Made by a program: the position numbers and the translations under genes
In this document: piece after piece, positions 196-30,351 of the stretch
Position numbering within the stretch: the stretch's first letter is position 1
Layout of the letters: each line of letters opens with the position of its first letter
The notes under the pieces: model-generated
Told to the model about the DNA's origin: nothing
Database searches by the model: none
The model's input: only the letters and a program-made list of their open reading frames with translations
Virus record (IMG/VR): IMGVR_UViG_3300017963_001551
Span: 1 to 30,386 of that record
DNA length: 30,386 nucleotides
Reading direction: 5' to 3' (one strand)
From: a virus

Positions 196-196
196 T

Positions 197-1186: not shown

Positions 1187-1188
1187 AA

Positions 1189-1977: not shown

Positions 1978-1983
1978 AATATT

Positions 1984-3549: not shown

Positions 3550-4316
3550 CCGTTGTATCCATAGCCAACAAGATAAATAGTTATATTCGTGGAGTCATTA
3601 AATGTACTTACCCAATAAGCTTCAAATACCCTAGAAGTTATTGGTACTTTTACTGAAGAAGTTGTTCTTCCCTGCCCGCTACCATTACTATTTGTATATG
3701 TATAAACGGTACTTATTAAGTTATCACCACCAATAGTTTCAGAGCTACCATCATCTCTAGCATAAACAAGAATAGCCCGACCTGTATCAGCGGTATCGCC
3801 TGAACTAACACCCCATGAATCAACTTTAATCTCAATCCAATCAGCATCAGACGGCACACTATCAAGTGCCGTCCAAGTATTAGTAGCGCCTGATCCTGTC
3901 GCACCTATATCCCCACCAACCCACGTTGACTCAGTTAATGAATGAATATTAAATCCTGTATCTGAGACATTCGGATTACCGTTTGCATTATCAGTAAATA
4001 CTGGATTGGCTCCGCTTGGAGGTAATAAAGCAGCAGGAATCTGAGCGCTAGCGTTTAGCTGAACCAATAAGCTAGCCGCATTAAAATTGGCTAATAAGCC
4101 AAAATTACCCACAGTTATTGTATGCTGCGCAATCCCTGAGATCAGGTTCAAGTCAGAAGGTGTAGCTGTTACGGCTCCATTCATATTCGGGAACGTCTGC
4201 TTGATCGTTTTTTTGATCAATCTCAGATGGTCATCACCTTGAGATTTTGAGTCCGTCGCCCCAACAGGATTAGTTGTAACAAGATCGGTTATATAGTCCC
4301 CGGTTTCTAATGCCAT
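3546..4316 (-). CDS. Tail fibre / appendage protein
   Basis: The protein is 256 aa. Its N-terminal signature MALETGDYITDLVTTNPVG, followed by SKSQGDDHLRLIKKTIKQTF at residues 23-42, is a classic anchor module of phage tail fibre and appendage proteins. A linker rich in Asn and Ala follows. The C-terminal 130 residues are beta-rich, with many Thr, Ser, Gly and Trp, and look like a receptor-facing or trimeric beta domain. No chaperone or peptidase motif is visible. An AGGTGAT Shine-Dalgarno precedes the ATG, and the stop overlaps the next start. The protein is short for a full receptor-binding fibre, so it may be an anchor or a short spike. Confidence 0.82.
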   Translation of the reverse strand: MALETGDYITDLVTTNPVGATDSKSQGDDHLRLIKKTIKQTFPNMNGAVTATPSDLNLISGIAQHTITVGNFGLLANFNAASLLVQLNASAQIPAALLPPSGANPVFTDNANGNPNVSDTGFNIHSLTESTWVGGDIGATGSGATNTWTALDSVPSDADWIEIKVDSWGVSSGDTADTGRAILVYARDDGSSETIGGDNLISTVYTYTNSNGSGQGRTTSSVKVPITSRVFEAYWVSTFNDSTNITIYLVGYGYNG

Positions 4317-4324
4317 AGAATCAC

Positions 4325-4936
4325 CTAATTAGCCACAGACATTAGCGGCGAACCGCTAACCTTGCGTTTATTATCTTCTTTCTGAATCATGCGTTTGGCG
4401 TTCTGGTATCTCATCTCCCAGTATTCCCTTTCTTTGTCATTACCAATGTACTCCCATGCTTCCACAAGAGACGCCGACAAAAGAATGTCTGGCGCGTTGT
4501 TTGTAAACCAGTTTGTCGTATTGGAATCGCTTAACGCTGTAGGACGGGCATAATACGTGCCAACTATCGTATAGGTTGAGTCTGGATAAGGGCCAAAAAT
4601 GAAGTTATCCCCATCTTCGCCGATATATTTAGGCACTGAATCGCTGGACCTCGTTGGATAGTTTCGATAAATCCACTCAGCAGACTGCTTTAACAGGGGC
4701 TTGTCTGGACTTCCTGATATACGGGCATGCTTTAATTCAACATAATCGGAGGGCATAGCGGCTACCCCTGAAGCAATCGTGACACTTAACGCGGTTTCCA
4801 TCGTCCTGATGCGTAACTCTCGATAGATTCTATTCTCGCCTAGCGAGATAAATTCAGGCACTCTTGATGTGTGCGCCGTAGAATCTATCCAGTTTTCTAC
4901 CGATGTCTGTAATTCTGAGTAATTGGTGATAGCCAT
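4325..4936 (-). CDS. Head-tail adaptor protein (SU10 adaptor-like)
   Basis: The protein is 203 aa. The start MAITNYSELQTSVENWIDST, then RVPEFISLGENRIYRELRIR (residues 25-44), is characteristic of the small ring-forming adaptor that sits below the portal in SU10-like podoviruses. A conserved-looking beta part contains DGDNFIFGPYPDSTYTIVGT (about residues 108-127), and a C-terminal helix has WEMRYQNAKRMIQKEDNKRK. The start overlaps the preceding stop (TAATG), so translation is probably coupled. Length and motif order fit the family. In the known complexes this protein joins the portal to tail nozzle proteins; that role is taken from the family. Confidence 0.83.
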   Translation of the reverse strand: MAITNYSELQTSVENWIDSTAHTSRVPEFISLGENRIYRELRIRTMETALSVTIASGVAAMPSDYVELKHARISGSPDKPLLKQSAEWIYRNYPTRSSDSVPKYIGEDGDNFIFGPYPDSTYTIVGTYYARPTALSDSNTTNWFTNNAPDILLSASLVEAWEYIGNDKEREYWEMRYQNAKRMIQKEDNKRKVSGSPLMSVAN

Positions 4937-6306
4937 TAAGAAGCCTTCTTGATTTCGGTTTTTGATGCTTTCCAGTTTTTGAAGGATCGGGTTAAGTCTT
5001 TTATCCCGATATCTCGATACAATTTCACAGAGTTAGCCCAAACATATTTTTTGGGATGGAATAGCCAGCCTGTAATCTTAGGCACCATGACCCAGGCCTC
5101 CTTACCTAAAGCCCCAGCTAGTTGAGTCACCGAAGTAGGGACCGCTATCACAAGGTCTAGCTCAGAGACCAAAGCCGCTGTTAGATCGTAATCTTTGATT
5201 TCGGTAATCCACGGAAAGTGATGAACCTTTATGCCGCGAGTCTTTTCAAATTCCGCTACTTCATCCGAGGCGTCATTATATTGAAGTGAAACCCACTGAA
5301 TATCCTTATCTCTCAAAAGATGCGCCATTGATTCTAGCGTTTTCTGTCTGAATTGCTTTCTGGATTGTTTTGTTCCGCCGGTCCACGCGATACCCACCTT
5401 TAGCCCATCGCCAAGAGAATCCAAGAGACCTCTCATGGCCTTTCTCATATCAGAGTCAGCTTTCAGGTAAGGCGTGCCAGGGAAGTCTTCGTTTCTCTTC
5501 CGGTAATACTGCAAAGCCCCAGCCTGGGTAATATAGGCATCCGGTTCTACGTGAGATGGTAGCGCCAATTCAGCCTGCCATCTGGAGCCCGCAACAATCA
5601 CATTCTCAGGAAGGGAGCGCTCCATCAAGCCTTTTAATCTGGGCATACCGTCATAAATGACATATTTACAATTCTTAGCCATATCCTCAAAAACTGAGGA
5701 ATAAATTAGCTCATCGCCTATCCCTTGCTCACCATTAACAATCACGGTCTGTCCCGGCGTACCGTCCCACATCGGAAGGTCGCCATACTGAATATCAGGC
5801 CTTGAGGCATGTCCGACCATTGAGTGATAGTTTTTCCAGCCTTCCTCCCAATCCTGAAGCATTAAGCAGGCAAAGCCTTTTGTTGATTGTCCTACAACGT
5901 AATCAGGATCGATTTCAAGGCACTTGTCTATCCACTCCATAGCCGCATCAGGGTTACACATTTGCAGCTCTAATGAGGCCATGTTCGCCATAGCCGCCAA
6001 GGAATCAGGGTTTAACTCAAGGGCTTTTTCTAAACACCATCGGGTAGCCTTCCAGCCTTCCTCATCGTCTGTTTGGCAGCGGGCAAAGTTTACCCAGACC
6101 TCTGGTCTGTCTGGTGTCATTTTGGCACACCTGGCAAAGGCATTATAAGCCAGCCCTTTTTTGGCAGTTTGTATCATGATTCCGCCAAACAGAAACAATG
6201 CCGGAGCATCGTTAGGATCTTCGTCTAGCAAGTCGTTTACAATATTGAGCGCTTTTTCATATTCGCCTCGCTCATAGGCTTCTTTAGCTTGGATATGTCG
6301 GTTCAT
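4936..6306 (-). CDS. TPR protein fused to a glycosyltransferase-like (GT9/SPINDLY-like) domain
   Basis: The protein is 456 aa with two parts. Residues 1-160 form about four tetratricopeptide repeats, with recurrent A-x-x-Y/F, L-x-x-N/D-P and A spacing (for example KALNIVNDLLDEDPNDAPAL). Residues 180-450 resemble the sugar-nucleotide-binding fold found with TPRs in bacterial glycosyltransferases: VNGEQGIGDELIY near 190-202, VGIAWTGG near 304-311, WVSLQY, and SVTQLAGALGK near 391-401. Known relatives transfer sugars to protein or glycan acceptors, with the TPR part binding the acceptor. It lies between the head-adaptor gene and capsid genes, so a virion or host-surface protein may be the acceptor. 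The domain call is firm; donor and target are unknown. Confidence 0.82.
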   Translation of the reverse strand: MNRHIQAKEAYERGEYEKALNIVNDLLDEDPNDAPALFLFGGIMIQTAKKGLAYNAFARCAKMTPDRPEVWVNFARCQTDDEEGWKATRWCLEKALELNPDSLAAMANMASLELQMCNPDAAMEWIDKCLEIDPDYVVGQSTKGFACLMLQDWEEGWKNYHSMVGHASRPDIQYGDLPMWDGTPGQTVIVNGEQGIGDELIYSSVFEDMAKNCKYVIYDGMPRLKGLMERSLPENVIVAGSRWQAELALPSHVEPDAYITQAGALQYYRKRNEDFPGTPYLKADSDMRKAMRGLLDSLGDGLKVGIAWTGGTKQSRKQFRQKTLESMAHLLRDKDIQWVSLQYNDASDEVAEFEKTRGIKVHHFPWITEIKDYDLTAALVSELDLVIAVPTSVTQLAGALGKEAWVMVPKITGWLFHPKKYVWANSVKLYRDIGIKDLTRSFKNWKASKTEIKKAS

Positions 6307-6614
6307 AGCTTTATCTTATTTGGATTGAGTTTGCGGTTTTCTGCTTTGTTTAGCTGCTTAACAGCATAATCATGCCACCCTCTTGAATAAGGTGGGTGCC
6401 CGCATTGCTGAGACCATTCCAAGACTTTTATTTGCGGTATCGTGCCGACATACCATCGGTTCTTGGTTCTATCCAATTGCCCCTGAGCCCGCATATTGGC
6501 CTCAAGGATCGGATTCACGTCCTGAACCGATTTTATAATATTCTTCCCGGTTTCCGAGTCTGTATAGAAATAATCAGTTATCCCGGTAAATGGGTCATAA
6601 CCTAGCTTCTTCAT
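6303..6614 (-). CDS. Conserved small phage protein next to capsid genes (103 aa)
   Basis: The protein is 103 aa and begins MKKLGYDPFTGITDYFYTD. It continues with a motif resembling VQDVNPILEANMRAQGQLDR (residues 32-51), a pattern seen in small proteins encoded beside the capsid gene of SU10-like and related phages. The middle carries Trp/Tyr-rich segments (NRWYVGTIPQIKVLEW). There is no signal peptide and no enzyme motif. A strong GGAGGACAC site precedes the ATG, the start lies inside the end of the HNH gene, and its stop overlaps the next start. Genomic position suggests a minor head or capsid-associated protein. The exact role is unknown. Confidence 0.72.
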   Translation of the reverse strand: MKKLGYDPFTGITDYFYTDSETGKNIIKSVQDVNPILEANMRAQGQLDRTKNRWYVGTIPQIKVLEWSQQCGHPPYSRGWHDYAVKQLNKAENRKLNPNKIKL

Positions 6615-7231
6615 GTGTCCTCCGTAATATGCTTATGCCTCTTGCCAGTTCTTATTTTTGAAACCATCTGGTCAGATATATTATATCGTTTAGCTATATC
6701 TCTGCCTGTTTCATGACTGAACTTTATATCTCTTATCTGTTCATCAGTTAAAAACTGATTCCATTGCTTGAACGGTCTGCGGTTCCGTTGTTGCTCTGAC
6801 CTGGTGGCCCATCGGCAATTAGATTTCTCATAATTACCATCTGGATCTATGCGATCAATCGTATGCTTATTGGTTGGTGGATCGCCCATATCTTCATAGA
6901 AATTATCGAATACTAACCATCTGTCACAGACTTTAATGCCTCTGCCACCATAATACTTATACCCAGTAGCTTTTGGATTAGAACATCTTTTTTTCATGTC
7001 ATCCCATGATCTATATACCCTGGTATTCGTCATTCCATGTGTAGTCGCTCTTTCTTTTGAAAGGCAGCCGCATGACTTAACCTTTCCTGATGTAAGATCA
7101 AATGAGGCGTTTACCTTTTCTGCCCCACAATCACAAATACAAAGCCATTTAGTTTTATTTTTTATTCTAATCGTATCTTTTACAACTAAGCGGCCAAACC
7201 TCTTTCCTTTCAAATCTGCAATTTTTCTCAT
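6611..7231 (-). CDS. Homing-type HNH endonuclease with N-terminal Zn module and C-terminal HTH
   Basis: The protein is 206 aa. Residues 8-19 (KGKRFGRLVVKD) plus Cys31, Cys33, Cys35, Cys54 and Cys56 form the zinc-binding N-terminal module of phage HNH/AP2-type homing proteins. The nuclease part has YYGGRGIKVCDRW (93-105), then His123-Thr-Ile-Asp126-Arg-Ile-Asp and Asn138-Cys-Arg-Trp-Ala-Thr, the usual H-N-N/H layout. A C-terminal helix-turn-helix (about 161-195, LTDEQIRDI to KIRTGKRH) probably reads DNA. It stands alone between the major capsid gene and a small head gene, a typical free-standing homing site. Its Shine-Dalgarno GGGGAGG lies in a hairpin arm (7238-7268). Confidence 0.9.
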   Translation of the reverse strand: MRKIADLKGKRFGRLVVKDTIRIKNKTKWLCICDCGAEKVNASFDLTSGKVKSCGCLSKERATTHGMTNTRVYRSWDDMKKRCSNPKATGYKYYGGRGIKVCDRWLVFDNFYEDMGDPPTNKHTIDRIDPDGNYEKSNCRWATRSEQQRNRRPFKQWNQFLTDEQIRDIKFSHETGRDIAKRYNISDQMVSKIRTGKRHKHITEDT

Positions 7232-7237
7232 GATAGT

Positions 7238-7268
7238 CCTCCCCAGTACGGCTAATGTACTGGAGAGG
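7238..7268 (-). promoter_or_regulatory. 12-bp hairpin that covers the ribosome binding site of the HNH gene
   Basis: On the minus strand CCTCTCCAGTAC (7268-7257) and GTACTGGGGAGG (7249-7238) pair over 12 bp with a single G-U and a 7-nt loop. The second arm contains the Shine-Dalgarno GGGGAGG, which sits 7-13 nt before the ATG at 7231. No T-run follows, so it is not a simple terminator. In long transcripts coming from the capsid gene the fold should hide the start. Known T4 homing endonuclease genes use similar hairpins to delay translation. Confidence 0.75.
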
Positions 7269-7299
7269 ATACCATTGCTGATAGGTGATCGTCAATCTA

Positions 7300-8262
7300 T
7301 CAAGTTAGGACTTCACCTATTTTTCCGCTCGATGCTTCATTCTTCGCTTCCAAAGTTAGCTCAGTAATCAGCATGGCTCGGTCAGAGTCACCCGTTTTGG
7401 CTAGTGGAGCGGTAGACATACCGCGAAGTTCTGCGATAGCCCAATATTCCATATCCAACAGGTAAATCTGATTGGTTGGCATGAATCGATTTGGCACAAT
7501 TGAATGCTCACCAAAGTCGGAAACATACACATCAGCAGCACCCACAACCGTACCTTGTGACTTCCCGGGTACATCTTTGTATAGCGTTGCGATACCGCTC
7601 AGATTTGACAGTTTACGCTTCATTGCAGAACCGACCATGATCACAGAAGGATCACCGCCATTATCCCAGCAGGATGCGATAACAGTCGCCAAAGGATCTT
7701 CTAACTGTGTTGCAGTAGTGACAGTCAAGCCGGTGCCTGCAACAAACCCAGCGCCACCGCCTGGTGTGGTACCAGTAGATGACATCTTGTGGAAGTTAGA
7801 ACCCAACCAAGCACAAACACCACCCAAAGCGCGGGCTGTAGCCGTGGCGGTAGGTGCATCACGATTCTGAGTGCTTAAAAGCGTTTTCTCAATATCGCGT
7901 TTTAGCTCACGACCACGTTTAGCTAGCTGGTATTCATACTCATCAGACCGGCCCGCCGTATTTACAGCACGCTGAGTACCAGAAACACTGATAACCTTAC
8001 GGAAAATCTGTGTCCGGTTCCCTGGGCGAGTTGTGGCGGCTGCGGCGTCTGCGGTAGCGTCATCACCTTCAAGGTGAGCCACGGAAGTAGCTGCGGCTAA
8101 TGAATCAGTTTGCCATTCATGATTGGTTGCGGTTGCGGTAGTACGTCCGATACCAGAGGCAAAAGGAGTCTCCATCGGAGAGATATCATAAATAACGTCC
8201 GAAAGGTCTTCACGATTACCAATAGCATCAAACGAAGTAAAAGTATTGACCGGTAAAGCCAT
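7300..8262 (-). CDS. Major capsid protein, SU10 type (former DUF5309)
   Basis: The protein is 320 aa. The N-terminal block NREDLSDVIYDISPMETPFA (residues 16-35), followed by TNHEWQTDSLAAA (46-58), is the signature of the SU10-type major capsid family, which adopts the HK97 fold. Later blocks fit as well: GRELKRDIEKTLLS, PSVIMVGSAMKRKLSNLSG and IYLLDMEYWAIAELRGM. The length fits a capsid with no separate prohead protease domain. AGGAGAATAAGTC lies before the ATG. It is directly preceded in the transcript by a scaffold-like gene. The capsid call is firm, and it is the main evidence for the SU10-like morphogenesis module. Confidence 0.93.
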   Translation of the reverse strand: MALPVNTFTSFDAIGNREDLSDVIYDISPMETPFASGIGRTTATATNHEWQTDSLAAATSVAHLEGDDATADAAAATTRPGNRTQIFRKVISVSGTQRAVNTAGRSDEYEYQLAKRGRELKRDIEKTLLSTQNRDAPTATATARALGGVCAWLGSNFHKMSSTGTTPGGGAGFVAGTGLTVTTATQLEDPLATVIASCWDNGGDPSVIMVGSAMKRKLSNLSGIATLYKDVPGKSQGTVVGAADVYVSDFGEHSIVPNRFMPTNQIYLLDMEYWAIAELRGMSTAPLAKTGDSDRAMLITELTLEAKNEASSGKIGEVLT

Positions 8263-16863: not shown

Positions 16864-17069
16864 TCATTCCCTACCTAACATCTTGATAATATCTTCATCA
16901 AAGACCACAAAGTTACTTGTCCCTTTCCCGCCTTCTCTGGACATTTGATCTAGGTAGCGGATGCCTTTTAGGACATTTCCCTGTTTAATTTCTCAAGATC
17001 ACGCATATTCTTCTCTTCGAGAAGTTCCCCTATAAGGGGCTGTCTTAATTTTGAGCCAATACTAGCCAT
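16864..17069 (-). pseudogene. Small conserved-looking phage gene read in two frames (frameshift)
   Basis: ATG 17069, which overlaps the NeuB stop, opens a frame coding MASIGSKLRQPLIGELLEEK and 13 more residues, and stops at TAA 16970-16968. Shifting by -1 before that stop gives an open frame E-I-K-Q-G-N-V-L-K-G-I-R-Y-L-D-Q-M-S-R-E-G-G-K-G then TSNFVVFDEDIIKMLGRE to a TGA at 16866-16864. The second half is plainly protein-like and in good codon use. The product of both frames would be about 70 aa. No canonical slippery heptamer is visible between the last usable codons (AAA TTA AAC AGG GAA ATG). So it is either a broken gene, a base error or an atypical programmed shift. The position, just before the portal, is where small phage genes often sit. 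Confidence 0.65.
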
Positions 17070-18000
17070 TTATAATATCCAAGTATTTATGGGGTTTTGT
17101 GGCACGTTTGCCTATTATTTTTGTTCTAGGCGTTTCAGGTCGAAGGTAAATTATATCGTCCTCTGTAATAGGTGCGCCCTGCTCTATCTCTCTAGCGGCA
17201 TAAGTACCGCGTCTCATTTGTGTTCTCATGTCGTATTCAGCCTCAACCGGCTTTCTATCGCCCATCATGGCATCAATTCGACTGCATTGCTTAACAAGAC
17301 GCCGCATTTGTTCAGGGCTTGCAGACAGTGAGTGGTCGCCATAATCAAGATATGGTCTGTCGGTAAAGTGTTTCTCTAACGTCTTCGCACCCATTGCATA
17401 AGCCGCAAGACAGGCAGTAATGCCTTTAGTATGGTCAGAGTAGCCAATCCGGGGACATAAGGTAGCTAGTTTAGGAATAACCCCCAGATTGGCGTCCTCG
17501 TCTCTCGTCGGGTAACTGGATACACACTGCATTAAGGTTAAATTACCTCTTGTGACCAACTTAGAGGCTAGGTCGATCTCTCGATAGGTTGCCATACCGG
17601 TTGATAAGATAATCGGCTTACCGTATTCGTTGGCCTTTCTGATGAGCCGGTCATAAGTAAGATCACCTGAGGCTATCTTGATTAAATCCATCCTTGGTGC
17701 GTACTTCTCCAGGGATTCCTCATCAAAGCATGTGGTAAGAAAGCCAACTTGCTTATAGATACAATATTTAATGATTGCATCCCATTGGTTGTCAGAAAAC
17801 TCCAACTCCTTAAATCGTGTGTATTGCCGATCATGCCCTTTTGCTTGAGGTAGCGCCTTAAGTGACGGGTGAACAAGGTTCTCTGCCTTGTATGTCTGGA
17901 ATTTAACGTAATCCACACCGCAATCAGCGGCTAAATCAATTAATTCCAGGGCTTTCGCCAATGACCCGCCGTGATTTCCCCCAATTTCTGCGATTATCAT
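17062..18000 (-). CDS. NeuB/SpsE-family nonulosonic acid (sialic-acid-like) synthase
   Basis: The protein is 312 aa. The family condenses phosphoenolpyruvate with a 6-carbon amino sugar to give a nine-carbon acid. Family hallmarks are present: AEIGGNHGGS (4-13, Glu5), VKFQTYKAENL (32-42, Lys33), LIKIASGDL (106-114, Lys108), YSDHTKGI (187-194, His190) and LEKHFTDR (208-215, His211), then a SAF/antifreeze-like C-terminal domain with RRGTYAAREIEQG (263-275). The domain set is complete though a little short (usual 330-350 aa). GGAGGACGC precedes the ATG, which overlaps the GT2 stop. Which acid it makes (sialic, legionaminic, pseudaminic or other) cannot be told from sequence. Confidence 0.88.
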   Translation of the reverse strand: MIIAEIGGNHGGSLAKALELIDLAADCGVDYVKFQTYKAENLVHPSLKALPQAKGHDRQYTRFKELEFSDNQWDAIIKYCIYKQVGFLTTCFDEESLEKYAPRMDLIKIASGDLTYDRLIRKANEYGKPIILSTGMATYREIDLASKLVTRGNLTLMQCVSSYPTRDEDANLGVIPKLATLCPRIGYSDHTKGITACLAAYAMGAKTLEKHFTDRPYLDYGDHSLSASPEQMRRLVKQCSRIDAMMGDRKPVEAEYDMRTQMRRGTYAAREIEQGAPITEDDIIYLRPETPRTKIIGKRATKPHKYLDIING

Positions 18001-18626
18001 GCGTCCTCCTGCTCTTTTAGGATTCGGGTGCGGGCCTCTTCCCTCTCCCGCAGGTTGGAGGACATAGAACCGTCGTGTTGACGGTAAAAATAGAGAGGCA
18101 GTGCTAGCCGCGACACCCGAAACTGTTTACGGAATCGTAGCCAGAAATCAAATGATTCCTGATATTCCAGTGTTTCGTTGTAGCCACCCAATACCTCCCA
18201 ACAGTCCTTGCGGTACATCACACCGCAAGCGTGTTCTAGGTCATCATTGGGTAAATGTTCTAAATGATGGACTGAATATCCATCACCTTTCTCTTCATAA
18301 GACTTCCAGTAGTCACACCATACGGCATCAATACCGGGATGCCGGTCAAAGTAGCCAACCTCTACCTCGACCAGATTAGGCTCTATCCAATCGTCTGCAT
18401 CGATACGGATAATGTACTCACCTGTTGCAGCTTTAATCCCTTGATTGCAAGCATGAGCCAGTGTGCCGTCACAGTAAATGTCTGCTTTGACGTCCTTTGT
18501 GCCATTAGCAACAACAATAGTCTCAAGATTTGGGTACGTCTGTTCCTTTAGACTTTTTAGCGCTATTGGTAGCAGGCTTAGATACTTTGGATGCACCACC
18601 AGTACCACGCTTACTTTCGGTTTCAT
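17997..18626 (-). CDS. Family 2 glycosyltransferase (GT-A)
   Basis: The protein is 209 aa. The N-terminus KVSVVLVVHPKYLSLLPIAL (4-23), then LKEQTYPNLETIVVANGTKD (26-45), and the metal-binding RIDADDW (74-80) are the GT2 fold's first half. A later CDYWKSYEE and FDFWLRFRK (about 159-167) continue it. The acceptor half is short, and no membrane segment is present, so it is probably a soluble transferase. The first 104 nt overlap the 3' end of the 71-aa gene in another frame. Its stop overlaps the NeuB start, so the two are translationally coupled and probably work together. Donor and acceptor are unknown. Confidence 0.86.
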   Translation of the reverse strand: MKPKVSVVLVVHPKYLSLLPIALKSLKEQTYPNLETIVVANGTKDVKADIYCDGTLAHACNQGIKAATGEYIIRIDADDWIEPNLVEVEVGYFDRHPGIDAVWCDYWKSYEEKGDGYSVHHLEHLPNDDLEHACGVMYRKDCWEVLGGYNETLEYQESFDFWLRFRKQFRVSRLALPLYFYRQHDGSMSSNLREREEARTRILKEQEDA

Positions 18627-18738
18627 TGAGATCGACCATTAATTGATGAATGACATTGTGGATATCAATAAAGCTTTGCTTTAGCTCCGCAATATCGGCC
18701 TCTAACCGCTTTAATCTTAACGCTGCTCTAGTGCTCAT
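18523..18738 (-). CDS. Small coiled-coil phage protein (71 aa)
   Basis: The protein is 71 aa. Residues 1-40 (MSTRAALRLKRLEADIAELK, and on) form a likely coiled coil. The C-terminus is Lys/Ser/Thr-rich and probably disordered. TAGGAGGACAC lies right before the ATG, a very good ribosome binding site, and it starts 8 nt after the TerL stop. Such short coiled-coil proteins are common between terminase and portal. The tail half overlaps the N-terminus of the GT2 gene in another frame by 104 nt, which is long for this operon. No domain is recognised. Confidence 0.72.
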   Translation of the reverse strand: MSTRAALRLKRLEADIAELKQSFIDIHNVIHQLMVDLNETESKRGTGGASKVSKPATNSAKKSKGTDVPKS

Positions 18739-18746
18739 GTGTCCTC

Positions 18747-20165
18747 CTAAATAACTTTGTAGTCCGGCTGCGGGCTCGGACCTTTCCTCTTTTTGTTCAT
18801 TTGTACAGCAAATGACATCATTAGACTGTCGGCCAGATTAGGCGAGGCTATCTTGTGCCTGGTCTTCATGGCCTCTTTGGTCATAATCTGTATCCTACCA
18901 CTACCGTTTGGCACCAGAGGTATCCGACAAAGCTCGGACCTTAGCTTGGTTAAGTGGCTAATATCACTTGATAGAGAGATCATGTCATCAGGGTCAATAT
19001 ACTCCCCTTGTGATGCCCTGTAAGCGTTATAGAACCTATCTCTTAGTCCCCAGTAGTATTGGGCTCGTTTGTTCTTAAACGTCTCTATGTTTGTCCTACG
19101 GCTGTGAGGCGAGTCCTCTGCTGGCTGATAAACAGCATCAGGGTAATCTACACCCTCGCTCCCTTTGAACATCTGATGTTCTATTTTGGGGAGGGATTTG
19201 TTTATTTGTCTTTTGAGCGAGACTCCAAGTCCGTCGGCATCCCAGAGGAAGTAATCAGCCTTAACTTGGAGCGCGTAGTCTGTTGCCCAGTCGCAACCTT
19301 CGTTGACGTCGCCAGTTTCGAGGTCTTTAACCTCCTTAAAGACAACTCCATGTCGATAAGCGAGACCCTTAGCGTCTCCGCCGAGGTCTGAAGGGTCGTG
19401 AGTGACGACTTTAAGTCCACGAGGCTTGAATCCAATTTTCTCATGGAGGTTAATAGCTGCATCAAACCACTCTGGGAGGATGATGGAGTTCTCAATTTGG
19501 TCACTAAATGCGCCCTCCCATATATGGTCATATTCCGCCCTGGGCTTGTGTTTCAAGTCCCAGAGCCTCTCCTGCTCAAGATTCTCTGGAAACCAGGGAT
19601 TGTCCGTATAGTTGACCTTAACAATTAAGTGTAGGTCATCCTCGTAATAACCATCCTTCTCTATCTTATCCAGATAAGGCACGATGAACCGCTGACTCAT
19701 TGGGTCTTCACTGGCCTGCGGATTGAGGGAGAACCATATCTCAGCATCTTCCTCTCGCAGCGTGGGGGTTAGCTTCTCTAGTGATTCTTTAGAGATAGCA
19801 TGGGCCTCTTCTACCCAGAAATACTTAAACCCATGCATCGACTTGATAGCGTCTGGGTTTCTAGCTAATCCCTTAAACTTGAATACCCCACCACTAGAAT
19901 GAGCTATATCGGCTTTTTGTACAGTAAACCCTTCTAATCCTAGCCTTTCTATCTCATGACTTAGAAGAGAGTGAACAGAATCTTCAATGGAGTTCTGCAT
20001 TTCACGGAAACAACCTACTTTGGCTGATTCTGTTTGCGCCTTCATCAAGAGAAGGTCTGCAAAGGTTTGCGACTTCGCGCCACCCCTACCGCCAAGAGCT
20101 ATTTTGAATCGCTTTTTCTTGGTTAAGAACGGTTCAAGCTTCTGAGGTATCGTTATCTGAGGCAA
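18747..20165 (-). CDS. terL: Terminase large subunit
   Basis: The protein is 472 aa. The ATPase domain has Walker A GGRGGAKS (25-32) and Walker B YFWVEEAH (115-122). The C-terminal RNase-H-like nuclease has the acidic residues in THDPSDLGGDAKG (255-267, Asp257), LWDADGLG (308-315) and SPNLADSLMM near the C-terminus. It packages DNA into the prohead as a motor. The start is TTG at 20165, in-frame with the ITIPQKLEPFL segment typical of the family start; no ATG is available before Walker A. The start overlaps TerS by 32 nt. The Walker A form with GGRGG resembles the PBSX/Terminase_3 group. The call is firm. Confidence 0.94.
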   Translation of the reverse strand: MPQITIPQKLEPFLTKKKRFKIALGGRGGAKSQTFADLLLMKAQTESAKVGCFREMQNSIEDSVHSLLSHEIERLGLEGFTVQKADIAHSSGGVFKFKGLARNPDAIKSMHGFKYFWVEEAHAISKESLEKLTPTLREEDAEIWFSLNPQASEDPMSQRFIVPYLDKIEKDGYYEDDLHLIVKVNYTDNPWFPENLEQERLWDLKHKPRAEYDHIWEGAFSDQIENSIILPEWFDAAINLHEKIGFKPRGLKVVTHDPSDLGGDAKGLAYRHGVVFKEVKDLETGDVNEGCDWATDYALQVKADYFLWDADGLGVSLKRQINKSLPKIEHQMFKGSEGVDYPDAVYQPAEDSPHSRRTNIETFKNKRAQYYWGLRDRFYNAYRASQGEYIDPDDMISLSSDISHLTKLRSELCRIPLVPNGSGRIQIMTKEAMKTRHKIASPNLADSLMMSFAVQMNKKRKGPSPQPDYKVI

Positions 20166-20517
20166 TGACTTTAACTGTCCAATTAGTATCTAAGGTCTTA
20201 CCGCCTGATGTCACGTCCTGCTTATCGTGATAACCGTGCTTACCAAGCGCCAACTTAACAATATTAGAATTAAATGCACCTCTTAGGCCTTGATTCATTA
20301 AAACTTGATGCTGCTTAGCATTAATTTTCTCTAATATGTCAGAAAACTCTTTCTTTTCTTCCTGGCTTGACCAGTCATAAATGGTTTCACGTGAAACGCC
20401 TAACACTAAAGAAAGGCCTACAACGCTAGGCATTACATCTCCCGCGCTCTCATAATCTGAGAGATAAGAAAGAGACTTATCAAGAATTTCTTGATTGTAT
20501 TTAGTGGGTCTTGCCAT
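20134..20517 (-). CDS. terS: Terminase small subunit (P22 gp3-like)
   Basis: The protein is 127 aa. MARPTKYNQEILDKSLSYLS starts it as in P22 gp3-like packaging proteins, which begin M-x-R-P-x-K/R-Y. A helix-turn-helix follows (VGLSLVLGVSRETIYDWSSQ, residues 33-52). It recognises DNA and feeds the TerL motor. The NSNIVKLALGKHGYHDKQD segment (83-101) matches the family's later helix and linker. It lies just upstream of TerL with a 32-nt overlap. The upstream ribosome binding site is weak. The family call rests on N-terminal motif, length and synteny. Confidence 0.9.
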   Translation of the reverse strand: MARPTKYNQEILDKSLSYLSDYESAGDVMPSVVGLSLVLGVSRETIYDWSSQEEKKEFSDILEKINAKQHQVLMNQGLRGAFNSNIVKLALGKHGYHDKQDVTSGGKTLDTNWTVKVIASDNDTSEA

Positions 20518-20551
20518 AGTGTTTTTAGATACTTATACCAACCTAACCTTA

Positions 20552-20899
20552 TTATGTATTATCTGGTTGATTAGTCAAGTTTTCTCTTAATTTTTTTCTC
20601 GCTTCCTGTATTGAGGCTCTAGCTTTGTGCCGGGATACCTCAAGCTCTTTGGCTATTCGTCTCTCTGAATAGTTCATTATGTACTTGCCAGCCAATGCGT
20701 CCCTCAAGACACCTTCAAGAGATATTATTTCCTCGTTTAACCGCCATACCCTGCGATTGGGCCAATAGTTAGGCACGTATATTGTGGTAGCCCTAACAGT
20801 CACCTCCTTACTCCATGCGGGCTGTAGAGAGATTTCGGCCTCTTTTAGTATGGATTGTGCCCACTCTCTCAAAAGTGCATCAAGCTCCGAATCCCGCAC
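20552..20899 (-). CDS. HTH DNA-binding protein, possible late regulator
   Basis: About 115 aa. Start placed at GTG 20899 because AAGGAG sits 7 nt before it; a TTG at 20902 is the alternative. The C-terminal third, NYSERRIAKELEVSRHKARA then SIQEARKKLRENL, is a helix-turn-helix of sigma-70-region-4-like form. Small HTH proteins directly before terminase genes are often late-gene activators or antiterminators in phages, and this one has no packaging motif. The start overlaps the end of the cytidylyltransferase gene. No family name can be given; the regulatory role is inferred from HTH and position. Confidence 0.75.
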   Translation of the reverse strand: MRDSELDALLREWAQSILKEAEISLQPAWSKEVTVRATTIYVPNYWPNRRVWRLNEEIISLEGVLRDALAGKYIMNYSERRIAKELEVSRHKARASIQEARKKLRENLTNQPDNT

Positions 20900-21530
20900 C
20901 AATTATCTCCTTGAGTGTTGGAGGTTTCCCTTTGTAGTACTCATAAATAGCTTGGATCGCTTTTAGTTGCTCCGGGTAGTCCACAGTAAAACTAAGAGTA
21001 TCATCTAGCCCGCCTGGAACCTCTAATATTGTCGGCAAGGTCTGTAGATCGTACGTCATATACTCCGTGTCTATGCTGGTTCCATCGGCCTTTAGGTCAT
21101 CGTGCAGGCTTCTGAGCGCTTCAGTCTTGACTATCTCGCACTTGGTTCCTGCTGGCATATCGACAGCCCTGGTATAGTCTGGGTTTACGCTTAGGTGTTC
21201 CTCTACCATTTTTAGCATCATATCCGGGTCTGTCAGCGGGTTGTCTCCTGTTACTCTGATGATGTTTGCAGCCTGGTGCTTGTCGGCTACAGCCAGGAAT
21301 CGCTCCATTACATCATTTTCTGAGCCCTGATAAACCTCTATCCCTGCCATTCTACAGGCGTCTGCCAGAACACGGTCATCCTTATGGGTAGACGTGCAAA
21401 GTACGGCCTTTAATCCTGTTGGCGCTAGTCTGTCGAAAAGTCTCAATATTAGCTGTTTGCCATATAGGTTTGCCAATGCCTTGCCGGGGCATCGCTTAGA
21501 CTTCATTCTCGCTGCGACACAGATAATCAT
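20880..21530 (-). CDS. SpsF/NeuA-like cytidylyltransferase
   Basis: The protein is 216 aa. ARMKSKRCPGKALANLYGKQ (7-26) is the CTP-binding loop of the CMP-sugar synthetase family (R-x-x-S-x-R-x-P-x-K), and RVTGDNPLTDPDM (92-104) is the second motif with the metal-binding Asp. These enzymes link CMP to acids such as KDO, sialic or legionaminic acid. SpsF-like members are shorter than NeuA, in keeping with this size. The start overlaps the stop of the mini-NeuB gene (ATGA), a pairing also seen in sps clusters. Activation of a nonulosonate made by NeuB is a sound inference, but the substrate is untested. Confidence 0.85.
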   Translation of the reverse strand: MIICVAARMKSKRCPGKALANLYGKQLILRLFDRLAPTGLKAVLCTSTHKDDRVLADACRMAGIEVYQGSENDVMERFLAVADKHQAANIIRVTGDNPLTDPDMMLKMVEEHLSVNPDYTRAVDMPAGTKCEIVKTEALRSLHDDLKADGTSIDTEYMTYDLQTLPTILEVPGGLDDTLSFTVDYPEQLKAIQAIYEYYKGKPPTLKEIIGAGFGA

Positions 21531-22123
21531 AGAGATCTTTCGGCCTCGCGGATAAACTTCACAAACGCCTTAAATTCATCCGGCTCTAGTGCTGAGCACC
21601 AGTCCTTTGACTTCTTTTTTAACTCATCCCTATTCAAACAGATGTGCTTCTCTATCATTGCAGCGCCACGCTCTATCGCTATAGCCGGAGCAGCAAAAGC
21701 CCAAGGAGAACCAACAGGAGAGTGATCTGCATACCCATATCCAGGCCCTACTTTATGTAGCAATGAAGCCTCAATAGGCGTTGGGTACATCTGATGCCCA
21801 ACTATGGGATAGCCCTCCCACATTTTATGTTTAGCGTTAATTGGATCATAACCATCGATTTCATCCATCCAAGAGCAACAAAAACTCTTTGACCACCCCC
21901 CGTAATATTGTCCAATTAGCTCACGATAAGCACTGAATATCTTTTTCCAACCACTTTTGGGGATACATTTATCCATCATGTGGGAGAAATCACCCTCTTC
22001 AGGGCTCCAGACCTGGACCTTTACCCCATCAGCTCCCGCGTTATACGCCTCCCTTATTAGCTCCAGGCACAGATCCGGGCTTCCCATGTGAGCGCTGGCT
22101 ATCTCTGCGATTATCGTCGTCAT
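21527..22123 (-). CDS. Miniature NeuB-like protein (about 198 aa, barrel only)
   Basis: Start chosen at ATG 22123, with AGGAGAGGACAG just upstream; an in-frame start 33 nt earlier would add a basic tail with no ribosome binding site. It has the NeuB entry AEIASAHMGS, KVQVWSPEEGDF (Lys like Lys33 of the long homologue), YADHSPVGS and MIEKHICLNRD (two ligand His), then EPDEF as in the family. It lacks the middle block with KIASGDL and LSTGM, and the C-terminal SAF domain. So it keeps Glu, Lys and both His but misses several barrel elements. It may be an altered or degraded synthase, or a related enzyme. Stop overlaps the cytidylyltransferase start. Confidence 0.78.
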   Translation of the reverse strand: MTTIIAEIASAHMGSPDLCLELIREAYNAGADGVKVQVWSPEEGDFSHMMDKCIPKSGWKKIFSAYRELIGQYYGGWSKSFCCSWMDEIDGYDPINAKHKMWEGYPIVGHQMYPTPIEASLLHKVGPGYGYADHSPVGSPWAFAAPAIAIERGAAMIEKHICLNRDELKKKSKDWCSALEPDEFKAFVKFIREAERSL

Positions 22124-22229
22124 CTGTCCTCTCCTTTTTGGGCTTACTGGTACCAAAGGCCTTCTCCCAGTTCGATCTAATCTGATCCTCTGGAACCTGC
22201 GCGGGCCTCCTATTGTCTCCCTTGCTCAT
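22041..22229 (-). CDS. Small phage protein of NWEKAFG type (62 aa)
   Basis: Start at ATG 22229, whose ATGA overlaps the radical SAM stop; an upstream start would add 8 residues within that gene. It begins MSKGDNRRPAQVPEDQIRSN then WEKAFG. The pattern of a short basic lead, then Asn-Trp-x-x-hydrophobic-Phe-Gly, is common in small phage proteins. The C-terminus is Arg/Gly/Asp-rich and overlaps the mini-NeuB start by 83 nt in another frame. Function is unknown. It separates the radical SAM gene from the NeuB-like gene and may be an original phage gene into which the sugar cassette was placed. Confidence 0.68.
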   Translation of the reverse strand: MSKGDNRRPAQVPEDQIRSNWEKAFGTSKPKKERTDDDDNRRDSQRSHGKPGSVPGANKGGV

Positions 22230-23077
22230 TTGTAGCTTGCCCCTACCTGGCAATCATCACAAGGAAATCCTCTAGTAGGATCTTCGGCCATCCGTCTTAG
22301 AGATGCCATACGCTCACCATTCCAAATATCAATTAATGGGCTCTTGTTATAGTCGCCAATGGGATACTCGTTATTCCAGTTGCCACAGCAACCAAACACT
22401 GTGCCGTCCCACGCAACAACCAGCCGCTGAAACGGCTGTGGGCACTTCTTCCGCTTTGTCTTGTTAAGCTGTCTCATGGGCCTGAAAGAATAGCTATCGG
22501 CCTTAAATACCCTCTTTAGCATGTCTATTTCTCGCTCATTCGAGGCTTGTACGGTCATTTGTACAATAGTTTCAGGCTTGTTGGTTTTGTGGTAATTCAA
22601 GAATTCCATGTTATTTACTAGCTTATTGAAGTCACCCTTTACCCTAATGGCTTCGTATGTTTCCTTGGTGCCTCCATCAATAGACACAATCAGCTTATCT
22701 AAGCCTGAATCAATCAGCTCCTTGATTCTGTGCTTTGAAAACGAGGTGAAGTTAGTGTTTATCATTATTTCAGTATATTTTAACTTCTTTGCCAGCTTGA
22801 TCATTGGAATCAGGTGTTTGCTCAAGCCCGGTTCACCGCGAAAGTTCAACTTGATTGATTTTGCGCCGTTAGCTCTAGCCTCTTTAATGGCTTTCTCTGC
22901 CATGCTTCTTGGCATCATGCCCTGCATGGAGTCGTCAAAAGACCCATCACCGAAAGGACACATGGTGCATGCTAGCTGACATTTCCCCGCTAATTCGATA
23001 TCAATATGCACAGGGAACCTTCGCTTGTAGAAAGGAGATATATTGAATAAGAATCGATACCACCAATACTTAATCAT
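22226..23077 (-). CDS. Radical SAM protein with SPASM-like C-terminus
   Basis: Start chosen at ATG 23077, which overlaps the epimerase stop (ATGATTAA) and has TGGAGTGG upstream. The protein is about 283 aa. CQLACTMC gives the 4Fe-4S CxxxCxxC motif (Cys33, Cys37, Cys40), and KSIKLNFRGEPG (near 72-83) is the SAM-binding GE region. The C-terminus CPQPFQRLVVAWDGTVFGCC and the later CDDC pair form a SPASM-type domain with extra iron-sulfur ligands. SPASM radical SAM enzymes modify peptides, proteins or sugars. In this operon it lies between sugar genes, so a role on the sugar or its acceptor is inferred. Substrate unknown. Confidence 0.88.
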   Translation of the reverse strand: MIKYWWYRFLFNISPFYKRRFPVHIDIELAGKCQLACTMCPFGDGSFDDSMQGMMPRSMAEKAIKEARANGAKSIKLNFRGEPGLSKHLIPMIKLAKKLKYTEIMINTNFTSFSKHRIKELIDSGLDKLIVSIDGGTKETYEAIRVKGDFNKLVNNMEFLNYHKTNKPETIVQMTVQASNEREIDMLKRVFKADSYSFRPMRQLNKTKRKKCPQPFQRLVVAWDGTVFGCCGNWNNEYPIGDYNKSPLIDIWNGERMASLRRMAEDPTRGFPCDDCQVGASYK

Positions 23078-23849
23078 TGAACCACTCCACTGTTTGATCC
23101 AGACCATCCCATAGCCCTATCTTGGGCTCCCATCCCAAATTCTGCATTGTCCTGGTAATATCTACAGGGTTAGACCTTACATCACCCTTTGATGGAGGGT
23201 TATGTGCAACCCTCTTGCCCGCCTTCTTTGCTATTGAATACGCCACTTGATTGATCGAGGTTTGAATCCCGGTGGCCACGTTTAAAACTCCGGTAATATC
23301 TGAATCTATCGCTAAATCTATAGCGTCCACGACATCATAAACATGGATAAAATCTCTGGTCTGATACCCATCGCCATTTACCACGATCTCCGGTGATTTG
23401 ATCATTGAAGTAACTACTGAGGTCTTGTTTTCAGAATGTGGCCCATAAACGTTTGAGAACCTCAATGAAAGGGTTCGGATATCAAAAGCTTCCTTGTAAG
23501 CAGCCATATAAGCCTCGCCACCTGCCTTCCCTGCTGCATAGGGTGACGTTATCTTGTTGACGCTGCCGCTTGATGCGTAAATCACCCTGCCTACCCCTGT
23601 TCGCCTTGCGGCCTCTAATACGTTTATAGTACCCAAAGCGCCATGAGAGAAATCATGAATAGGATCATCAATAGACTGAGGAACGCCAGGGCTAGCCGCC
23701 AGATGGATAATGCACTCATGACCCATAACAGAATCACATAAATCCTCTAAACTCCTGATGTCATCGCCATTCAAAATGTCGTATGAAACCCCGCCGTAGC
23801 GCTCAATAAAATTAGTCCCTATAAACCCGTCTCCGCCTGTAATTACCAT
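23070..23849 (-). CDS. NAD-dependent sugar epimerase/dehydratase (extended SDR)
   Basis: The protein is 259 aa. TGGDGFIGTN (4-13) is the Rossmann G-x-x-G-x-x-G NAD motif, YASSGSV (91-97) holds the catalytic Ser, and SPYAAGKAGGEAYM (102-115) holds Tyr104 and Lys108. RFSNVYGP (about 128-136) and QTRDFIHVYDVVDAI are the usual UDP-sugar SDR blocks. It is short for a UDP-glucose 4-epimerase (about 310-340), and the N-terminal strand is trimmed. The start overlaps the SQD1-like stop by 7 nt. It probably works on a nucleotide sugar in the same pathway, but 4-epimerase, dehydratase or reductase cannot be separated here. Confidence 0.86.
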   Translation of the reverse strand: MVITGGDGFIGTNFIERYGGVSYDILNGDDIRSLEDLCDSVMGHECIIHLAASPGVPQSIDDPIHDFSHGALGTINVLEAARRTGVGRVIYASSGSVNKITSPYAAGKAGGEAYMAAYKEAFDIRTLSLRFSNVYGPHSENKTSVVTSMIKSPEIVVNGDGYQTRDFIHVYDVVDAIDLAIDSDITGVLNVATGIQTSINQVAYSIAKKAGKRVAHNPPSKGDVRSNPVDITRTMQNLGWEPKIGLWDGLDQTVEWFND

Positions 23850-24931
23850 TTTACCCTCGGCATAATTTGGTCGTTAACAATCTCGCCCTTGAACTCGGAC
23901 ACGTATTCAAGCATGGATTTAATATCCTCGCGCCTCAAGTAGTGCGGCTCTAATCCCATGTTCATCAGGGAGTCATTTTTAACATTATAATAGTGGTCTT
24001 CTTTTTCTTTCCGAGGATTTTGTATGTGGTCAATCTTGACATCAAGCCCCGAATCATTACCCACCTCATAAATAAGGTTGGCTATCTGGTTGATAGACCA
24101 AGACTCTGTGAATTGATTAAACACCCTAAACTCCCCCTCTCCGGCCGGGTTTTCAATGGCCAACCGAATACACTTTAATGTGTCCCTGAGATTTAATATG
24201 CCTCGGGTTTGGTTGCCTTTCCCATACACTGTTAGTGGATGCCCCGCCACTGCTTGTACAATAAACCGATTCAGGGCAGTGCCAAAAACGTCATCATAGG
24301 TAAACCGGGGTCGAACATCGTCTGATTCATGCCCCCATACAAATCCTTGGTTTAAGTCCGTAACCCGTAACCCCCACACTCGCGAAGCGAAGGCCAAAGC
24401 ATCTGAATCATGGACCTTTGATAGGTGGTATATACTGAAGGGGGATTTTGGATATAGCATTCTATCCGTTCTGCCGTTATGCGTAACATCAAGATACCCC
24501 TCTTCGATATCAATATTGGGTGTACCATACTCTCCGAGAGTCCCTAGCTTTATTAGGTGCGTTTTAGGTGAGAATTCTTTTAGGGCATAAATAATATTTA
24601 GGTTCCCCTTGATATTATTCATAATGGTTTTCATGCCCTGCTTGCGATCAGCCATTGAATAAGGGGCTGAGGGGATCTCGGCATAATTAATAATTACGTC
24701 TGGCTGAATACGCTTGACTAAGTGGCTGATGCTCTCCCAGTTTGCAACATCAATAAATACGGGATCAAGTTCGTTTAACTCTACGTCACTATGCAGATAG
24801 TGAATATCATTGCTAACAAGCAAATCCCGCTTTAAAAGGTTGTCTACCGCGACTACAGTATGATCTCTCGCTAAATCAATACATGTAGGCAACCCAAGAT
24901 ATCCATCTGCGCCTAATACAATAATCTTCAT
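23843..24931 (-). CDS. sqdB: UDP-sulfoquinovose synthase homologue
   Basis: The protein is 362 aa. The SQD1/SqdB pattern is striking: GADGYLG (7-13), IPSAPYSM (86-93), KLGTLGEYGTPNIDIEEGYL (128-147), THNGRTD (150-156), YHLSKVHDS (168-176), TDLNQGFVWG (191-200), HPLTVYGKGNQTRG (231-244), GEFRVFNQFTE and MGLEPHYL. Thr131, Tyr168 and Lys172 fall 14 residues before Thr145, Tyr182 and Lys186 of plant SQD1, so the catalytic set is kept. The enzyme makes UDP-sulfoquinovose from UDP-glucose and sulfite. AAGGAGGACAA lies right before the ATG, a strong site. No sulfoquinovosyltransferase of the lipid type is seen in the window. Confidence 0.92.
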   Translation of the reverse strand: MKIIVLGADGYLGLPTCIDLARDHTVVAVDNLLKRDLLVSNDIHYLHSDVELNELDPVFIDVANWESISHLVKRIQPDVIINYAEIPSAPYSMADRKQGMKTIMNNIKGNLNIIYALKEFSPKTHLIKLGTLGEYGTPNIDIEEGYLDVTHNGRTDRMLYPKSPFSIYHLSKVHDSDALAFASRVWGLRVTDLNQGFVWGHESDDVRPRFTYDDVFGTALNRFIVQAVAGHPLTVYGKGNQTRGILNLRDTLKCIRLAIENPAGEGEFRVFNQFTESWSINQIANLIYEVGNDSGLDVKIDHIQNPRKEKEDHYYNVKNDSLMNMGLEPHYLRREDIKSMLEYVSEFKGEIVNDQIMPRVKW

Positions 24932-28847: not shown

Positions 28848-28999
28848 CACTTCTCTCCTTTTCTCAGTTTCCTCGCAAACGCCCGTAGGATCTCTGTATG
28901 CTCTTTTCTAGCCCATAGGTATACCCTACAGTACCCTTCTGACTTCATGCGTTTAACGTACCTGGCTGTACGCTCAGGGGCTGTTTTGTCTTTAGTCAT
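28847..28999 (-). CDS. Small basic phage protein (50 aa)
   Basis: A 50-aa ORF MTKDKTAPERTARYVKRMKS then EGYCRVYLWARKEHTEILRA. The ATG overlaps the stop of the 77-aa gene, and its stop overlaps the next start (TGATG). Small proteins of form K-x-x-E-R-x-x-R-Y-x-x-R-x-x-x-x-G are common in phages and plasmids and often bind nucleic acid. It is strongly basic. Function unknown. Confidence 0.7.
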   Translation of the reverse strand: MTKDKTAPERTARYVKRMKSEGYCRVYLWARKEHTEILRAFARKLRKGEK

Positions 29000-29225
29000 C
29001 GGTCTTAGCCTTTAATCGCGCATTTTCTTCCTGCAATCGGTTGACATAATTGGCCAGCTCTCGAGGAATTTCTAGGCGCTTTATTTTTTCTGTGGGCCGG
29101 ATTCCATCAACACCCTCAATGTAATCAAAATCATCTATTGGACAATCAATAAAATATCTCTGTCTAGCAAAAGGTGGGCTGTCATTGCCATCCGTAAAAC
29201 AAATAATATTAAAGTTGTTCATCAT
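28992..29225 (-). CDS. First gene of the leftward operon, hypothetical (77 aa)
   Basis: The protein is 77 aa and begins MMNNFNIICFTDGNDSPPFA. AGGAGAGAG lies before the double ATG. The C-terminal third (ELANYVNRLQEENARLKAKT) is a coiled coil with a leucine-zipper-like pattern. It is the first gene after the leftward promoter at 29249-29277, so it is likely expressed early and strongly. No domain is recognised; the coiled coil suggests self- or partner-binding. Confidence 0.72.
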   Translation of the reverse strand: MMNNFNIICFTDGNDSPPFARQRYFIDCPIDDFDYIEGVDGIRPTEKIKRLEIPRELANYVNRLQEENARLKAKTDD

Positions 29226-29305: not shown

Positions 29306-29334
29306 CTTTAAATATTGTTTATGGGTGGTATAAT
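29306..29334 (+). promoter_or_regulatory. Rightward extended -10 promoter
   Basis: TGGTATAAT (29326-29334) is a perfect extended -10 box (TGn plus TATAAT). The -35 is weak (CTTTAA or TTTAAA), which an extended -10 can offset. Start predicted at 29340-29341, just at the first helix of the RNA that follows. Confidence 0.75.
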
Positions 29335-29339
29335 GTACG

Positions 29340-29616
29340 AAGTCGCGCAGACTTAAACAGCGCTAGCCGACTGTAGGTGAAACTCGACGACAACGGAAGG
29401 CCTTTGGTGAGCCTTGGCAGCAAATTCCCGACGAGAAAACGCCGTAGACGTGCGGGGGAATGGGTAGATCGAAATGCTACCGCCGGAAGCATAACCGGCA
29501 TATCAAAAACAGACATAGTTTCCGATATAAAGGATTTCTTATGTCCAAAACCCTGCCTAGCAGGTATCCTGAATACAGGATGAATAATACGCCCCTCAAA
29601 TCGAGGGGCTTTTTTA
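29340..29616 (+). ncRNA. Unidentified structured non-coding RNA of about 276 nt
   Basis: No credible ORF fills this promoter-to-terminator unit. Helices found by eye: AAGTC (29340) with GACTT (29350), its loop GCGC matching GCGC at 29360, a pseudoknot; AAGGC/GCCTT (29397, 29411); ATTCCC/GGGAAT (29424, 29456); GGTAG/CTACC (29463, 29477); GCCGG/CCGGC (29482, 29495); GACATA/TATGTC (29512, 29540) with inner TCC/GGA; CCTGC/GCAGG (29552, 29560); TCCTG/CAGGA (29567, 29576); and the terminator stem. No tmRNA, RNase P, 6S or group I hallmark was recognised. It may act in trans or regulate the genes to the right. Identity unknown. Confidence 0.72.
29591..29616 (+). terminator. Rho-independent terminator of the structured RNA
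   Basis: GCCCCTC (29591-29597) pairs with GAGGGGC (29603-29609) over a 5-nt loop, followed by T6 (29610-29615) on the plus strand. A textbook strong terminator. Confidence 0.92.
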
Positions 29617-29696
29617 TTTCCCTACGCTACTTGCGTACATATAAATCCTACTTATGCCCTATCAAATCTTTTCATTAGACGCATCTTTTGTGCTTT

Positions 29697-29734: not shown

Positions 29735-30103
29735 ATGAGCAAGCCAGAAACAATTAAAATTGATGATGTTGAATATGTGCGAAGCGACAGCAACCAATTA
29801 GCTAGGCCTGTCGAGGGTTTGAAATATTGCGTTATTCGCACTTACTCGGCTGGAGTGCATATCGGCTTTGTTGAAGAATTCGGAACCAAGCAGCCACAAT
29901 ACGCCAAGCTCCTAAAATCTCGCCGATTACACTACTGGAATGACGCAGCCAGCTTATCTCAGGTAGCAATGGATGGCGTGGGCGAGACATCGCGCATAGC
30001 AATGGAATTACCAGAAATTGAACTAACCGATGTGATTGAAGTTATTCCCTGCTCTGAAGAAGCCGCCGAATTTTTCCAGAGGGCAAAAGCATGGAAAAAG
30101 TAA
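29735..30103 (+). CDS. DUF6948-like phage protein
   Basis: The protein is 122 aa and starts at an ATG with AAAGGAG upstream. The pattern TIKIDDVEYV (5-14), YCVIRTYSAGVHIGFVEEFG (31-50), then RRLHYWNDAASLSQVAMDGV (63-82), matches the small beta protein family DUF6948 found in phages. Its role is unknown. It is the first rightward gene after the structured RNA's terminator. Its last 13 bases overlap the start of the Gly-rich repeat ORF, a neighbour pairing I believe recurs in phages. The family call is from motif memory, not from a search. Confidence 0.75.
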   Translation: MSKPETIKIDDVEYVRSDSNQLARPVEGLKYCVIRTYSAGVHIGFVEEFGTKQPQYAKLLKSRRLHYWNDAASLSQVAMDGVGETSRIAMELPEIELTDVIEVIPCSEEAAEFFQRAKAWKK

Positions 30104-30351
30104 ATCTATGCAGTATGCGTAATTGCGAAACTGGTGGCTCTGGCGATGGCTCTGGCTATGGCTATGGCTATGGCTATGGCTATGGCTATGGCTCTGGCGA
30201 TGGCTATGGCTGTGGCTATGGCTCTGGCGATGGCTATGGCTATGGCTCTGGCGATGGCTCTGGCGATGGCTATGGCTCTGGCGATGGCTCTGGCTATGGC
30301 TCTGGCGATGGCTGTGGCTATGGCTCTGGCGATGGCTCTGGCTCTGGCTAA
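30091..30351 (+). CDS. Gly-Tyr/Ser/Asp dipeptide-repeat ORF
   Basis: The ORF has 86 codons. After MEKVNLCSMRNCETG it is only Gly alternating with Tyr, Ser, Asp or Cys (GSGDGSGYGYG and on) to the stop at 30351. The ATG overlaps the preceding stop; a later ATG at 30115 is the alternative. The DNA is a hexamer repeat, so all frames are long, and only this one keeps the Gly-rich peptide and a phage-like start. The product would be unfolded. Such ORFs are seen beside DUF6948-like genes in phages. Whether protein is made is uncertain. Confidence 0.6.
   Translation: MEKVNLCSMRNCETGGSGDGSGYGYGYGYGYGYGSGDGYGCGYGSGDGYGYGSGDGSGDGYGSGDGSGYGSGDGCGYGSGDGSGSG
30130..30350 (+). repeat. Hexanucleotide tandem repeat (GGC-TAT/TCT/GAT units)
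   Basis: About 36 imperfect copies of a 6-bp unit GGCTNT or GGCGAT run nearly to the end of the repeat ORF. Variation falls on the second codon (TAT, TCT, GAT, TGT), which suggests slip-strand expansion with selection or constraint on the Gly codon. Confidence 0.92.

Follow-up and report, generated by a model that had tools for sequence, protein, structure and literature searches.

The window, as we call the whole 30,386-nt stretch of DNA analyzed here, is a partial virus record from IMG/VR (IMGVR_UViG_3300017963_001551). The element described below lies in a divergent gap of 510 nt, bounded by a leftward gene (28992-29225) and a rightward DUF6948 gene (29735-30103). Its features are as follows.

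28992-29225, minus strand: divergent small gene forming the left boundary of the intergenic region; a search for relatives found none
29307-29334, plus strand: predicted sigma-70-type promoter (TTTAAA, 16 nt, extended -10 TGGTATAAT)
29340-29616, plus strand: predicted non-coding transcript of about 275 nt (promoter and terminator, no coding signal, fold z -2.81)
29340-29354, plus strand: 5' hairpin AAGTC-GCGCA-GACTT, whose loop could pair with GCGC at 29360-29363
29364-29425, plus strand: conserved core of 62 nt, UAGCCG-CUG-UAGGUGAAACUCGACGACAACG-AAGGC...GCCUU-GG-CAG; counterpart at 3408-3467 of a second contig, L068
29397-29415, plus strand: hairpin AAGGC/GCCTT within the core; AAGGT/ACCTT with another loop in L068
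29424-29459, plus strand: three-way element closed by ATTCCC/GGGAAT, predicted by folding
29461-29588, plus strand: row of stable hairpins, predicted by folding (z -4.07); no counterpart in L068
29591-29609, plus strand: intrinsic terminator stem GCCCCTC/GAGGGGC, followed by T6
29735-30103, plus strand: DUF6948 gene, 3' of the terminator (PF22253, E 5.6e-23)

A predicted transcript in a divergent gap

The first-pass annotation of this DNA had read the gap as an extended -10 box followed by roughly nine short helices, no credible ORF and a strong terminator, and this outline held up. The -10 element TGGTATAAT contains TATAAT at 29329-29334 with TGG 5' of the box, a weak -35-like TTTAAA lies 16 nt upstream, and transcription is predicted to start at about 29340. 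TGGTATAAT is the top-scoring promoter-like site of the region; the number of promoter-like sites there is at the chance level. At the other end, the GCCCCTC/GAGGGGC stem runs directly into TTTTTT, 119 nt short of the DUF6948 gene. Coding signal is absent from every frame of the gap: on a codon-usage score trained on this genome, which gives the flanking genes +0.22 to +0.29, the frames score +0.04, -0.22, -0.18, -0.18 and -0.31 per codon.

The predicted fold of 29340-29616 (MFE -86.4 kcal/mol, z -2.81) consists of some nine short local helices, and only 2 of 200 shuffled sequences were as stable. When 304 segments of 200 nt were scanned on both strands (mean z -0.52, sd 1.20), the plus-strand segment 29401-29600 ranked second (z -3.95). 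The stability is uneven. With the terminator excluded, 29461-29588 reaches z -4.07, whereas the first 121 nt (29340-29460) give z +1.17; the excess stability of the RNA thus comes from its 3' hairpin row. That row is built from GGTAG/CTACC, GCCGG/CCGGC, GACATA/TATGTC, CCTGC/GCAGG and ATCCTG/CAGGAT. As the earlier annotation had pointed out, AAAGGA (29529-29534) and ATG (29541-29543) fall within one hairpin, the GACATA/TATGTC hairpin at 29512-29545.

A core shared with an N4-like phage

Scanning 2.9 million viral contigs for one 15-mer, GAAACTCGACGACAA, returned 81 stretches, which is about the number expected by chance according to our estimate. When the flanks of these stretches were scored for similarity to the RNA, L068 stood out (z 4.1), and two more viral-contig scans, run with different segments of the core, again led only to this contig. 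The other pattern hits (of 81, 7 and 32) were chance matches or shared protein-coding DNA, leaving L068 as the only real one. Direct blastn comparison of the two contigs gave a single significant segment of 37 bp with 2 differences (E 3e-10), and tblastx of the window contig against L068 gave nothing. Neither program detected any other similarity, so that, within the sensitivity of these comparisons, the two phages are unrelated outside this segment. The window belongs to a phage with an SU10-type portal; on the 6.3-kb contig L068, the genes have their matches in N4-like (Schitoviridae) phages, with a gp44-like ATPase 61% identical to its counterpart in Vibrio phage VBP47.

Both copies of the core read TAGCCG[A/C]CTGTAGGTGAAACTCGACGACAACG[G/A]AAGG, continue through a variable loop and end in CCTTGGCAG[C/G]AAA. 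They differ at 14 of 62 columns, and 10 of the 14 make up the apical loop and closing pair of the AAGG-N/N-CCUU hairpin. The closing pair is C-G in the window and U-A in L068, one compensatory change, and the loop differs in length by 2 bases. The 22-nt stretch UAGGUGAAACUCGACGACAACG is invariant and has little internal pairing. Sharing this stretch and the AAGG-N/N-CCUU hairpin, the window and L068 copies make up a two-member candidate family. A reading frame through the segment (VKLDDN) meets a stop in L068 in addition to the 2-nt change in length, which excludes protein coding for the shared segment. The broken frame and the concentration of differences at a single hairpin loop and the pair that closes it suggest selection on the core as RNA, although in pair statistics, computed from two sequences, half of the shuffles reached the observed covariation score.

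Of the RNA's 276 nt, only some 62, or perhaps 90, are conserved. Immediately beyond the core, the helix closing the next domain (UUCCC/GGGAA in the window, AAAGU/ACUUU in L068) may also be shared, as may TTAAAC[A/G]GCG upstream, and the loop letters GAGA.AAC...GUA.AC of the element at 29424-29459 are possibly common to both contigs; these resemblances are suggestive only. The hairpin holding AAAGGA and AUG belongs to the non-conserved 3' half. A GCGC/GCGC pseudoknot that had been annotated at the 5' end is compatible with the sequence, but it comprises only 4 bp, and no counterpart was found in L068. The homologue search proposed along with that annotation did produce a relative, but one that keeps only about 62 nt, the 3' hairpin row being without a known relative.

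The neighboring genes are not conserved. In the window the core lies ahead of DUF6948, and in L068 it sits in a 358-nt gap that runs from tRNA-Gln to tRNA-Tyr, with tRNA-Tyr following the core. The annotated genes of eight isolated N4-like phages leave no such gap at the corresponding position, and a model of the core finds nothing in their complete records. Upstream of tRNA-Gln, L068 has a further 266 nt without an ORF (2868-3133), containing two similar hairpins, GGGTGT[G/A]AGGCCC; we found no relative of this segment in phages, and it and the core might be parts of one larger RNA.

Further searches and known phage RNAs

Across 60 loci, the core model gave 91.4 bits for the window, 86.2 bits for L068 and 29.5 bits for the next best; as it was built from the window and L068 themselves, the two high scores define the family rather than test membership. 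Weak hits of 18-30 bits (L137, L284, L285, L286, L288) appear to be coding DNA or chance, and short matches in two genomes (G003, G005) are chance. Applied to about 1,500 sampled prokaryote genomes, a set that offers no known positive as a control and in which lytic phages are not expected, the model found only two matches, at 28-29 bits, both resembling coding DNA. An exact 25-mer scan of the viral contigs returned none, and a scan of genome contigs contained no true homologue among the matches listed (at least 117 stretches). BLAST collections of phages, plasmids and E. coli, queried with the RNA and with the core, held no relative; the matches obtained there were to the terminator hairpin or to coding DNA.

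Known families were compared as well. Rfam 15, against which the first annotation had proposed to check the RNA, has 0 matches in the window at curated cutoffs, and ARAGORN detects no tRNA or tmRNA in the window, in keeping with the earlier failure to recognize a tmRNA by eye. The 5' part (29336-29470, 135 nt) has no Rfam match even at E<=10. Hits well short of the cutoff, with E from 0.001 to 8, were obtained for 29501-29618 (anti-hemB at 25.9 bits, where 49.5 are required; Phe_leader; a toxic sRNA), and these are due to the terminator hairpin and adjoining hairpins. The sole match of L068 at the curated cutoff is a tRNA. A CAGAGAC-like string in L068 raised the idea of a group I intron, which no Rfam hit supports, and titration of CsrA was set aside on a count of GGA motifs that is, by eye, near expectation.

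Two phage RNAs whose function is unknown, GOLLD and ROOL (the latter from phages or prophages), are often located near tRNA genes or islands, and some GOLLD RNAs carry tRNAs in their linker (PMC12286853). The L068 copy, lying between tRNAs, is similar to GOLLD as a phage-encoded structured RNA near tRNA genes, and the same setting recalls ROOL. GOLLD, however, is often longer than 800 nt, compared with about 275 nt for the window RNA, and the covariance model of its conserved 3' region (RF02032) has no match at E<=10 in either the window or the L068 record. The ROOL model (RF03087, 574 positions) likewise gives no match at E<=10, a result with which cmscan agrees, in a search where no control genome matched either.

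An abundant ncRNA of phage ICP1, about 800 nt long, comes from an ORF-less gap between gp139 and gp140 (PMC7567579). Like the predicted RNA in the window, it is a stand-alone non-coding transcript from an ORF-less gap away from tRNAs. It is considerably longer, and similarity to the core is absent at E<=10 from the phage collection, in which we assume ICP1 to be present. The window RNA thus resembles GOLLD, ROOL and the ICP1 ncRNA in kind, not in sequence. In phage HK022, the put antitermination RNA forms a structured 5' end on an early transcript and precedes a terminator and early genes. Compared by description only, it shares with the window RNA its place 5' of a terminator and genes; the L068 copy inside a tRNA cluster does not fit this model. 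The original proposal of an undescribed structured RNA representing a new class therefore stands in part: no Rfam model matches at curated scores, nor do the GOLLD and ROOL models, and the core is kept at a non-coding place in an unrelated phage, but what we have is a two-member candidate family rather than an established class.

A candidate small RNA gene and its alternatives

We favor, with a probability of roughly 0.6, the view that the element is a small non-coding phage RNA gene, served by a predicted promoter and terminator of its own and belonging to a new two-member family defined by the 62-nt core. A new RNA family probably shows itself here for the first time. The transcript would act in trans as a structured RNA. 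A short helix (CUG/CAG, alternatively GCC/GGC) and the AAGG-N/N-CCUU hairpin would frame UAGGUGAAACUCGACGACAACG, a candidate binding site for a conserved partner, presumably a phage or host protein or RNA, while the 3' hairpins and terminator would supply stability and a defined end. The copy in the N4-like phage, lying between two tRNA genes, is presumably freed by tRNA processing, which could set its ends. Counting against an RNA gene are the small membership (two), the lack of conservation in the 3' half and the chance-level result of the promoter scan.

Bases that are non-coding and show 2 differences in 37 between otherwise dissimilar phages point to strong constraint or to repeated transfer of a useful module. 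Such an RNA would be a compact addition to the few structured phage RNAs known near tRNA clusters, and the small size of the core allows direct testing by pull-down, chemical probing and deletion. More tentatively, the family may exist either free-standing or within tRNA clusters, its 22-nt loop capturing a partner of wide conservation, such as a component of the host machinery for translation or tRNA processing, and so serving the same takeover or protection function in unrelated phages.

The position of the RNA ahead of DUF6948 raises the alternative of a cis-acting leader or attenuator, in which the terminator stops transcription, translation of a short ORF through the terminator lets polymerase reach DUF6948, and the hairpin gates the start. 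The parts for this are present: a good ribosome-binding site and AUG (29529-29543) lie within the hairpin, and the 45-codon frame they open (MSKTLPSRYPEYR...) stays open through the terminator, with the DUF6948 gene starting 119 nt past it. Yet the codon usage of this ORF is non-coding (-0.18 per codon), the conserved core is elsewhere in the RNA, and we did not find the core in or near relatives of the DUF6948 gene. Since the core precedes DUF6948 in one phage and a tRNA gene, within a group of tRNA genes, in the other, a free RNA is more likely than a leader that acts on nothing but the following gene, and we consider such a leader unlikely.

An antisense or sponge small RNA, whose conserved single-stranded stretch pairs with host or phage mRNA, would account for 22 invariant nucleotides with little internal pairing. 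Gene start sites within the window nevertheless offer no target beyond chance, and complementarity to the rRNA of E. coli, which may not be the host, equals that of shuffled sequences. We think this explanation improbable, and a protein partner or a host RNA is what remains for the free RNA that we favor.

Because 29340-29460 has no excess stability (z +1.17), the core could also be a conserved DNA site, such as a protein-binding, origin or recombination site, and its high letter-by-letter conservation is in line with this. The clustering of changes in a loop and in the compensatory pair closing its hairpin argues otherwise, as do the locations of the two copies, one inside a tRNA cluster and the other just 3' of a promoter; we think a DNA site very unlikely. 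That the gap is mere spacer with chance helices between promoter and terminator is hardly credible: random sequence contains many short helices and promoter-like sites are as frequent here as by chance, but conservation in an unrelated phage contradicts this for the core, and the z of -4.07 speaks against it for the 3' half, which could still be such spacer if homologues lack it.

Other records of the phage and observations elsewhere in the window

Two other IMG/VR records (L022, L023) come from the same phage, at about 99.9% identity, and neither covers the RNA region. A third (L037; IMGVR_UViG_3300017971_000788, 1-8000) overlaps the window by 2096 bp at 100% identity and extends it 5.9 kb leftward; there is no tRNA in the extension. 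In L016, a gene that starts MSKPETIKIDDVEYVR is immediately preceded by a strongly folded intergenic stretch (4782-5000, z -4.98), which contains a long GTGGTGGGGTAGGGAT.../...ATCCCTACCCCACCAC stem and is possibly another phage RNA. Upstream of a DUF6948 relative, 4620-4990 of L008 has z -2.96. Neither stretch has a match in Rfam.

The DUF6948 protein itself begins with a motif, IKIDDVEYVR (window 29735-29805), that is common to small phage proteins (L012-L019) unlike the remainder of it. Near the end of the record, at 30131-30350, lies a long hexamer-type repeat (GGCTATGGC/GGCTCTGGC/GGCGATGGC) with several open frames, which is probably the reason why the contig ends there. Far upstream, 17062-24931 holds a cluster that by eye resembles genes for nonulosonic (sialic-type) acid synthesis and sugar nucleotides, including a radical SAM/SPASM protein, identified with Pfam, at 22226-23107.
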